Virus record (IMG/VR): IMGVR_UViG_3300046534_000285
Span: 1 to 29,721 of that record
DNA from: a virus
Reading direction: 5' to 3' (one strand)
Length of the DNA: 29,721 nt
This document shows, piece after piece, positions 26,136 to 27,880 of this stretch. The notes under the pieces are model-generated. The model made no database searches. It was not told the DNA's origin and saw only the letters and a program-made list of their open reading frames with translations. Numbering within the stretch: position 1 is the first letter of the stretch; every line of letters starts with the position of its first letter. The translations under genes were made by a program, and so were the position numbers.

Positions 26136-27044
26136 ATGGCAATTTCAAGAGCCCAGCTCCTTAAGGAGCTATTACCAGGACTTAACGCTTTATTCGGTTT
26201 AGAATATGCGCGTTACGGAGAAGAGCATAAAGAGATTTACGAAACTGAATCTTCAGACCGCTCATTCGAAGAAGAAACAAAACTAGCTGGCTTTGCAGCC
26301 GCACCTCAGAAAAATGAGGGAGCAGCTATTGCGTATGACAACGCACAAGAAGCTTTTACAGCTAGATATAACCACGTAACAATTGCTTTAGGCTTCAGTT
26401 TGACTGAAGAAGCAGTTGAAGATAATCTATATGATAGTCTTTCAGCTCGTTATACTAAAGCTCTTGCTCGTTCGATGGCAAACACTAAGCAAGTTCGTGC
26501 AGCTAATGTTTTAAACAATGGCTTCAATGCAGCTTTCTTAGGTGGTGACGGAGTATCGTTATTCGCAGCTCATCCTACAGTACAAGGTGGTGTAAACAAC
26601 AATCAGCCAGCAGTTGGTGTGGATTTATCTGAGGCAGCACTAGAAGCCGCAGTTATTCAAATCGCAGCTTGGACTGATGAACGTGGTCTATTAATCGCGG
26701 CTAAACCTCGCAGATTAGTAATTCCACCAGCACTACAATTTGTTGCAACTCGTTTATTAGATACTCAGCTTAGACCGGGTACTGCTGATAACGATATCAA
26801 TGCAATGAGAACAAATGGTTCAATTCCAGATGGTTATTCAGTAAATCACTTTTTAACCGATGCGAACGCATTTTTCTTAACTACTGATGTACCTAATGGT
26901 ATGAAGCATTTTGAAAGAACACCATTAACTACATCTATGGATGGCGATTTTGACACAGGTAATGTTCGATACAAAGCCCGTGAGCGTTATTCATTTGGCT
27001 GGTCTGACCCGCTAGGTATTTGGGGTTCACCAGGTTCTACTTAA
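26136..27044 (+). CDS. Major capsid protein
   Basis: A 302-residue protein. The N-terminal helix (LLKELLPGLNALFGLEYARY) and E-loop-like part are followed by YNHVTIALGFSLTEEAVEDN, ALARSMANTKQVRAANVLNN, and a P-domain/A-domain part ending in KPRRLVIPPALQFVATRLL and PDGYSVNHFLTDANAFFLTT. It ends with RYKARERYSFGWSDPLGIWG. The series of spine-helix-like and beta segments, with the R-x-R-Y-S-F-G-W ending, suits an HK97-fold coat protein. Strong AAGGAG seven bases before the ATG and a strong terminator right after the gene suit high expression. Confidence 0.92.
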   Translation: MAISRAQLLKELLPGLNALFGLEYARYGEEHKEIYETESSDRSFEEETKLAGFAAAPQKNEGAAIAYDNAQEAFTARYNHVTIALGFSLTEEAVEDNLYDSLSARYTKALARSMANTKQVRAANVLNNGFNAAFLGGDGVSLFAAHPTVQGGVNNNQPAVGVDLSEAALEAAVIQIAAWTDERGLLIAAKPRRLVIPPALQFVATRLLDTQLRPGTADNDINAMRTNGSIPDGYSVNHFLTDANAFFLTTDVPNGMKHFERTPLTTSMDGDFDTGNVRYKARERYSFGWSDPLGIWGSPGST

Positions 27045-27067
27045 ATTGTAAGTAGTTCCACTCCCTG

Positions 27068-27097
27068 AAAAACCCCACTCCTCTCTGTGGGGTTTTT
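27068..27097 (+). terminator. Strong intrinsic terminator after the capsid gene
   Basis: AAAAACCCCAC (27068-27078) pairs with GTGGGGTTTTT (27087-27097), an 11-base stem with an eight-base loop. The flanking A- and T-runs make it able to work on both strands. Confidence 0.93.
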
Positions 27098-27147
27098 CTT
27101 TATCTACTATTAATACTTTTACGTAGTGCACTAATAAATTAAATAGA

Positions 27148-27153
27148 TATAAT
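27148..27153 (+). promoter_or_regulatory. Possible -10 box of the pqqA promoter
   Basis: TATAAT 46 bases before the pqqA ATG in very AT-rich DNA. The -35 region is a poor match, so sigma70 activity needs help or is weak. Between it and the gene lies the small hairpin TCAGCAATGCTGA (27161-27173). Confidence 0.4.
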
Positions 27154-27198
27154 TCTTATATCAGCAATGCTGAAATCTAATATAAAGGAGAATATCTT

Positions 27199-27270
27199 AT
27201 GTGGACAACACCTCAAGCTACAGAAATGAGATTTGGTTTTGAAGTAACAATGTACGTAATGAATAAATAG
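27199..27270 (+). CDS. pqqA: PqqA, precursor peptide of the cofactor PQQ
   Basis: A 23-residue peptide starting MWTTPQATEMR and containing FGFEVTMY. Glu15 and Tyr19 stand in the invariant E-V-T-x-Y motif; these are the two residues that PqqE joins and from which PQQ is built. The MWT-P start and the R-x-G-F-E-V-T-M-Y centre are those of normal PqqA (22-24 residues in most proteobacteria). AAGGAG stands eight bases before the ATG, and TAG follows a MNK ending. No pqqB, C, D or E is in the window, so PQQ synthesis would need the host's enzymes. The gene is alone between two intrinsic terminators. PQQ serves periplasmic dehydrogenases such as methanol dehydrogenase. A boost to the host's PQQ during infection is the simple inference. 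Confidence 0.93.
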   Translation: MWTTPQATEMRFGFEVTMYVMNK

Positions 27271-27304: not shown

Positions 27305-27330
27305 AAAGGGGCTTCGGTCCCTTTTTTGTT
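27305..27330 (+). terminator. Intrinsic terminator after pqqA
   Basis: AAAGGGGC (27305-27312), loop TTCG, GTCCCTTT (27317-27324), then more T. The outer ACAAC/GTTGT bases lengthen the stem. Confidence 0.93.
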
Positions 27331-27331
27331 G

Positions 27332-27445
27332 TATAATGGCATGAAAACGTGTAACATAAATTATCTGGGTAAAACCAGCTTATCAGACTGCCCCAGCAGA
27401 CGCATACACGACTGATAAGCTTTAACTTTGTATGGAGAAACAATT
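27332..27445 (+). promoter_or_regulatory. Structured leader of the gene at 27446
   Basis: TATAAT at 27332-27337 may be a -10 box, though without a -35. Then CTGG...CCAG (27365-27378) forms a small hairpin, and AGCTTATCAG (27377-27386) pairs perfectly with CTGATAAGCT (27412-27421). The two stems share two bases, so they compete in part. The region holds no gene and ends at the RBS GGAG (27434-27437). Confidence 0.55.
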
Positions 27446-27880
27446 ATGTCAAGAACTACTTTTTCAGGTCCCGTTGCCTCAACTAACGGATTTATTCCAA
27501 CATCATTTGTAGCAATCGATGTTACCCCCGCCGCAGCTATTACCGTAGCTCAATTAACTACAGGAAAAATTACATCAACTTCTGCCGCAGCCGTTGCAAT
27601 TACATTACCTACTGCCGCACTTTTAAGTACAGGAATAGCTGCTGTTGCAGGACAAGAATTTATTTTTATAGTAGATAACACAGCCGGAGCTAATACTGTA
27701 ACACTTACTCTAGGTGCAGGTGGAGCAGTTTCTGGTTTAGGTGCACTTGTAGGTGCCACATTTGGATTACTTGCAATTACTGCAGCAGCAGACATAGCTA
27801 AATGTAGCTTAATATTTACCGGCGGCGATGGTATAACACCTGGTAGTGCTACAGGATATAGATATACACGTTTAGCTTAA
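27446..27880 (+). CDS. Virion structural protein, Ala/Thr-rich
   Basis: A 144-residue protein starting MSRTTFSGPVASTNGF. The ATG at 27446 has GGAG eight bases upstream; an earlier ATG would lie across that site. It is made of Ala, Thr, Val, Gly and Ile in short beta-type runs (AAVAITLPTAALLSTG, GANTVTLTLGAGGAV) and is nearly free of charge. It looks like a small beta-sandwich decoration or fibre-base protein. No signature of a known family was found. It is first in the second rightward block after pqqA. Confidence 0.7.
   Translation: MSRTTFSGPVASTNGFIPTSFVAIDVTPAAAITVAQLTTGKITSTSAAAVAITLPTAALLSTGIAAVAGQEFIFIVDNTAGANTVTLTLGAGGAVSGLGALVGATFGLLAITAAADIAKCSLIFTGGDGITPGSATGYRYTRLA

Follow-up and report, generated by a model that had tools for sequence, protein, structure and literature searches.

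A stand-alone gene for the PQQ precursor peptide PqqA in phages of methylotrophs, often placed behind a putative promoter of host type

Introduction

The precursor peptide PqqA, whose Glu and Tyr are the residues joined into PQQ and whose binding to PqqD is established for the family, is consumed stoichiometrically, and the enzymes of the PQQ pathway are reused. PqqA has been described in a probable virus of methylotrophs: the Lake Baikal viral population VP_266, predicted to be a T4-like Methylophilaceae phage, carries the peptide, which was read there as raising PQQ and methanol oxidation in a phage set that also has methanol dehydrogenase (PMC7678222, 2020). Moreover, a 2026 study of reservoir sediments lists pqqA, pqqE and pqqD among the P-cycling genes that viruses encode (PMC13188868), an account that likewise places pqqA on viral contigs but does so as a catalogue entry, with pqqE and pqqD included and with phosphate solubilisation as its framework. 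On the host side, Methylophilaceae have 3-12 pqqA copies and usually one pqqBCDE set (PMC4109929); stand-alone host pqqA copies can rank among the most expressed, and overexpression of pqq genes has brought modest or limited gains only (PMC9851590).

Here, we analyze a pqqA gene in a 29,721-nucleotide viral contig (the window, by which we mean the whole stretch of DNA analysed). The first-pass annotation of this DNA had cautioned that a pqqA of methylotroph phages might already be on record, and the 2020 report on a Methylophilaceae phage confirms that caution (PMC7678222). Phage PqqA as such is thus already known, and the window contig adds to that kind; it differs from VP_266 in belonging to a lineage with a MinM2/HTVC023P-type head, in having no visible methanol dehydrogenase and in carrying pqqA in an insulated slot behind the capsid gene. 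What is new is the presence of unannotated pqqA genes in nine Methylophilales phage records and at least 120 IMG/VR contigs, together with an upstream motif shared by hosts and viruses; within the open-access literature (subscription papers and preprints lie outside this scope), we found no report of unannotated pqqA in cultured methylophages or of a shared promoter motif.

Results

The window pqqA consists of 23 codons plus a stop and encodes MWTTPQATEMRFGFEVTMYVMNK, with Glu15 and Tyr19 present. It lies among the following features, all on the + strand:

26136-27044, +: major capsid protein gene (PF25209, E=7e-13; phrog_371), directly upstream of the slot that holds pqqA; relatives provide synteny
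27067-27098, +: terminator-like hairpin with a 12-pair stem and T tail, which would end the capsid operon and insulate pqqA
27110-27127, +: degenerate dyad operator-like motif, TTAATACTTTTACGTAGT, with a combined PWM score of 10.9, above the 95th and below the 99th percentile of controls
27148-27153, +: putative -10 box, TATAAT, 38 bases from the motif start, the commonest spacing at viral pqqA genes
27161-27173, +: short stem-loop of the 5' leader, TCAGC-AAT-GCTGA, kept in 4/5 aligned relatives and lost in L125
27184-27190, +: ribosome-binding site AAAGGAG, predicted from sequence, 8 nt 5' of the pqqA ATG
27199-27270, +: pqqA, encoding the 23-aa PQQ precursor peptide
27305-27324, +: terminator-like hairpin, AAAGGGGCTTCGGTCCCTTT, with T tail, which would close the pqqA cassette; kept in L123-L127

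A length of 23 aa and the AAAGGAG site fit the short, ribosomally made peptides of the PqqA family, which are about 22-30 aa long, and the E-x-x-x-Y core that provides the Glu and Tyr of PQQ is in place. The Pfam PqqA model PF08042 aligns with the peptide along its full length of 19 positions (E=1.1e-10, 41.6 bits against a cut-off of 21.1), and TIGR02107, the equivalog model of NCBIfam, matches as well (E=9.6e-10, 38.1 bits against a cut-off of 20). In a PF08042 profile search, this gene was the single match in the whole 29.7-kb linear record, and 14 control genomes gave zero matches. By sequence, the product is a true PqqA. The observation in the first-pass annotation, a 23-codon ORF with a ribosome-binding site, Glu15 and Tyr19, was correct in every detail, subject to the virus being probably incomplete; a comparison with PqqA family models had been proposed there, and both models place the peptide above their curated cut-offs.

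Genes for a large terminase, a portal, a major head protein and a family A DNA polymerase identify the window contig, by its gene content, as a bona fide tailed phage. Its head genes are nearest to those of Synechococcus phage MinM2, Planktothrix phages and the Pelagibacter phages HTVC023P/027P; with related phages of about 58-65 kb, the virus genome in the 29.7-kb record is probably incomplete. A 2OG-Fe(II) oxygenase gene (PF13640, 4140-4721), of a type reported in OM43 phages too (PMC10580990), lies in the replication-side half of the contig.

The gene had been described at the outset as a pqqA without the rest of the PQQ pathway, and this holds throughout the 29.7-kb linear record, within which none of four probes (pqqB, pqqC, pqqD and pqqE) found a match; the unseen part of the virus lies outside this scope. 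Likewise, the pqqB-E probes found none within the locus DNA searched of at least 120 pqqA-bearing viral contigs, and the pqqB, pqqC and pqqE probes had no genuine phage match among 50,697 phage records, the matches obtained being contaminated Acinetobacter contigs and, for PqqE, additionally weak radical-SAM similarities. Carriage of pqqA alone is therefore the rule for phages rather than a quirk of this contig. The PqqA matches in the Acinetobacter "phage" records were themselves rejected as phage genes because pqqBCDE directly follow pqqA, as in bacterial DNA: CAKLQF020000010.1 and CAKLQH020000055.1 are labelled Acinetobacter phage MD-2021a in GenBank, and their contents are bacterial pqqABCDE DNA. 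That these records are such cases raises the idea that the window pqqA also stems from bacterial contamination or a chimeric assembly. We regard this as exceedingly improbable, because the gene is flanked by the capsid gene and by the following gene of the structural half, at the same place as in 6/7 of the closest relatives, which are separate contigs, and because cultured complete phage genomes also have pqqA. With 22/23 identity to a host peptide, terminase, portal and capsid genes around it and conserved synteny, it is a metabolic gene of host type carried in a genuine virus genome, as is characteristic of phage auxiliary metabolic genes.

Viral and host pqqA loci were collected by degenerate patterns requiring several core residues. 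At least 120 IMG/VR contigs match the degenerate PqqA pattern, and every match listed reads as PqqA. A tblastn search of the 50,697 phage records gave 12 PqqA matches, comprising one uncultured podovirus, the two Acinetobacter contigs and nine records of cultured Methylophilales phages, a tally that covers part of the cultured methylophages: MEP431-434, Venkman EXVC038S, HIM624-A, phiMB624-A, MG-MTP1 and RSA-MFP1, names taken from taxonomy, yielded no PqqA match, and EXVC038S was likewise absent from the matches to 10 kb of Venkman DNA. The nine are P19250A, which infects freshwater LD28, and Venkman, MEP301, MEP401, MEP402 and Melnitz (four records), which infect marine OM43; their pqqA products of 23-24 aa are above the PF08042 cut-off. 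Venkman, MEP301 and Melnitz were the only OM43 isolates before MEP401 and MEP402 were described (PMC10580990), and all five of these phages have pqqA. Among the phages known here from taxonomy by name, MEP431 is classified under Pelagivirus in the taxonomy, and two HTVC019P proteins used as queries returned no Methylophilales phage among the matches listed.

In the cultured-phage records that we opened, pqqA is uncalled, and the locus is blank or carries an antisense "hypothetical protein"; PHROGs holds no PqqA family. In the papers describing these phages, we found no mention of a PQQ gene, with PQQ appearing once as a medium ingredient and other auxiliary genes being listed. The cultured phages resemble the window in having PqqA, no pqqB, pqqC or pqqE that we could find, the upstream motif in most cases and Methylophilales hosts, but differ from it in the genome position of the gene and in virion type, and the neighbourhood of pqqA differs between phage lineages in each lineage opened.

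Across 107 distinct viral pqqA genes, variation affects 0.08, 0.06 and 0.30 of the sequences at codon positions 1, 2 and 3, respectively, making the third position 4-5 times more variable than the other two, and pN/pS is 0.16. The third-position excess and the pN/pS value exclude a chance ORF; judged from these sequences, the viral peptide is under strong purifying selection, in line with the maintenance by selection that marks an auxiliary metabolic gene. The pattern of the first scan fixed some residues; in a rescan that left the codons for Glu15 and Tyr19 free, both residues were kept in 120/120 matches listed, and Arg11 and Asn22, which were unforced in the first scan, are likewise invariant. 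A lack of Glu/Tyr conservation in related phages had been named beforehand as a point that would speak against PqqA, and conservation was found instead.

The same data bear on a possible decoy role, in which viral PqqA would occupy PqqD/PqqE to saturation and reduce the PQQ of the host, or would alter PqqA-linked regulation. A short peptide could compete with host PqqA for PqqD; an inhibitor, however, would need neither the Glu15 and Tyr19 seen in all unforced matches listed nor a sequence identical or near-identical to host PqqA, and we consider such a role quite unlikely compared with that of a substrate.

On sequence grounds, the window pqqA appears to form a small self-contained promoter-gene-terminator cassette downstream of the capsid gene, with a predicted promoter. 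The 600-base region contains six terminator-like sites, some of them overlapping, compared with 0.4 expected. pqqA occupies the post-capsid slot in 6/7 of the closest capsid relatives and in 1 of the other 73. In the closest relative, L122 (93% capsid identity), the flanks can be aligned and a 108-aa gene replaces pqqA, and in L125 and L126 the slot holds another small gene plus pqqA; these different occupants indicate an interchangeable cargo site of which pqqA is one occupant. The product of the L122 gene (L122:7010-7336) is small, and its N-terminus includes a hydrophobic stretch. Because the slot is an insertion point, as these relatives illustrate, the small cassette, equipped with a promoter and a terminator, might be a mobile element, neutral or selfish, that phages sharing a host exchange without gaining much from it. 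This is unlikely, given that the peptide is under strong purifying selection, that pqqA recurs in unrelated phage lineages with a common host order and that the pqqA-type promoter accompanies pqqA and not the other occupant in L122.

Motif discovery by expectation-maximisation from random starts, run independently on host and viral pqqA upstream regions, returned the same top motif from both sets, cTCATGAAatTCaTtAGg in hosts and TTaATGATTTTCctTA in viruses. The host-only matrix scored above 10 at 63/107 viral pqqA upstreams and at 12/628 upstreams of other ORFs in the same viral loci. When a TATAAT-like box at a preferred distance was also required, 44 viral pqqA upstreams and none of the other ORF upstreams qualified, a comparison that is less independent than the former because these distances had themselves been selected with the viral genes under comparison. 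The motif starts 61 bases before the -10 box in hosts (43/104) and 38 bases before it in viruses (28/95), and a weaker second copy lies 23 bases downstream in hosts and 23 bases upstream in viruses; thus the strongest host site is at 61 and the viral site mostly at 38. For a transcription start about 12 bases beyond the first base of the -10 box, the motif copies would lie near -64 and -41 and would correspond to the activator positions used in class I and class II activation. These data suggest that most viral pqqA genes lie behind a putative promoter of the host pqqA type.

Within the window, the spacing of this promoter type is exact and the site is degenerate: with the host-only matrix, the site at 27110 scores 3.6, and 18 window sites on both strands pass the motif threshold, with only the spacing setting 27110 apart on the + strand. 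In the alignment columns of the degenerate site, five relatives carry intact copies, CTCATGAATATGCKTAG or CTCATGATTTTACGCAG, and AGATATAATTCTT at the -10 region is nearly invariant among relatives. The enrichment of the motif upstream of viral pqqA could also mean that the peptide is of less importance than the DNA site, with operator copies on replicating phage genomes titrating a host activator of pqq genes. This appears very unlikely, as it leaves the conservation of the ORF unexplained and as the operator in the window is degenerate while the pqqA ORF is intact.

Exact copies of the motif in two OM43 genomes of 1.3 Mb lie mainly at pqqA promoters, namely those of a single pqqA and of a tandem pair. 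KB13 and M. methylotrophus have additional exact sites elsewhere in the genome, in M. methylotrophus also upstream of pqqB. A conserved OM43 site had been assigned to a neighbouring SoxYZ-like gene; this assignment was rejected when a PF08042 scan revealed the tandem pqqA pair directly downstream. The OM43 genomes examined have three pqqA copies, the tandem pairs sharing one upstream motif besides a separate extra copy, and tandem pairs about 200 bases apart are present in marine Methylophilales genomes (L219, L222 and G001-G003).

The commonest host PqqA, MWTTPAATEMRFGFEVTMYVMNK, accounts for 57/129 host copies listed, and the window peptide differs from it at residue 6 only (22/23 identical). 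All host loci listed by the same core pattern are in records titled with Methylophilales genera or broader groups that include them, a match to be read with the caveat that the search pattern itself fixes several residues. Because a single residue separates the peptide from the commonest host form and the nine cultured pqqA phages infect Methylophilales, the host of the window virus is very probably a methylotroph, with good evidence from the peptide for a member of this order. The first-pass annotation had proposed a marine methylotroph: the methylotroph is very probable on these grounds, but "marine" does not follow, as a freshwater LD28 phage and marine OM43 phages both have pqqA. Its interpretation is thus supported for the true PqqA, the lack of other visible pqq genes and the methylotroph host and unsupported for the marine habitat; the cassette arrangement and the putative promoter of host type had escaped it.

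Discussion

Taken together, these results make it likely that viral pqqA is an auxiliary metabolic gene that supplies extra PqqA substrate to the host pqqBCDE pathway during infection and thereby sustains PQQ. In the model that we propose from sequence comparisons, phages captured pqqA from a Methylophilales host and retained it as a self-contained cassette. Upon infection, host RNA polymerase would transcribe the cassette, probably aided by the host activator of host pqqA promoters, and the viral peptide would enter the host pathway of PqqD/PqqE, PqqB and PqqC as an added consumable substrate, with crosslinking by PqqE. The resulting PQQ supply would keep methanol dehydrogenase active during viral replication, and with it the provision of energy and C1 carbon, to the benefit of the phage. 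Since hosts have many pqqA copies and one pqqBCDE set, and since PqqA is consumed and the enzymes are reused, a phage copy most simply adds substrate. In view of the limited gains from overexpression of pqq genes (PMC9851590), we put forward a precursor bottleneck during infection as a hypothesis; that every lineage carries only the consumable peptide makes the question of precursor limitation in infected cells testable.

Host Methylophilales pqqA genes resemble the viral ones in their near-identical peptide and in the same upstream dyad, and stand-alone copies away from pqqBCDE occur among them. It is tempting to speculate that repeated capture of pqqA behind a host-type promoter wires viral precursor supply to host regulation of PQQ synthesis and that many or most Methylophilales phages relieve a general bottleneck in this way, a broader proposal to which we give an even chance. 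If true, few metabolic genes would be carried as regularly by the phages that kill abundant aquatic methylotrophs as this gene of 23 codons, which is too short for most gene callers, and viral infection would be linked to methanol oxidation. The shared promoter motif also offers a handle on the regulator of PQQ synthesis in Methylophilales.

Finally, two minor observations concern neighbouring DNA and other viruses. The leader of the gene following pqqA (27338-27445; ATG at 27446) contains a conserved structured element, CTTATCA-GACTGCCCCAGCAGACGCATACACGAC-TGATAAG, the core of which was matched in at least 120 viral contigs. Its outer helix can form in 78/79 distinct copies with base-pair changes, taking the best of several registers, and Rfam at the gathering threshold gave no match in the window, leader element included; the element is possibly an undescribed phage leader RNA. 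Separately, five viral contigs (L003, L029, L032, L047 and L055), some of 148-356 kb, encode another PqqA type (..FEITMYIANR or similar), in several cases with the same upstream dyad motif, and their hosts may lie outside Methylophilales.
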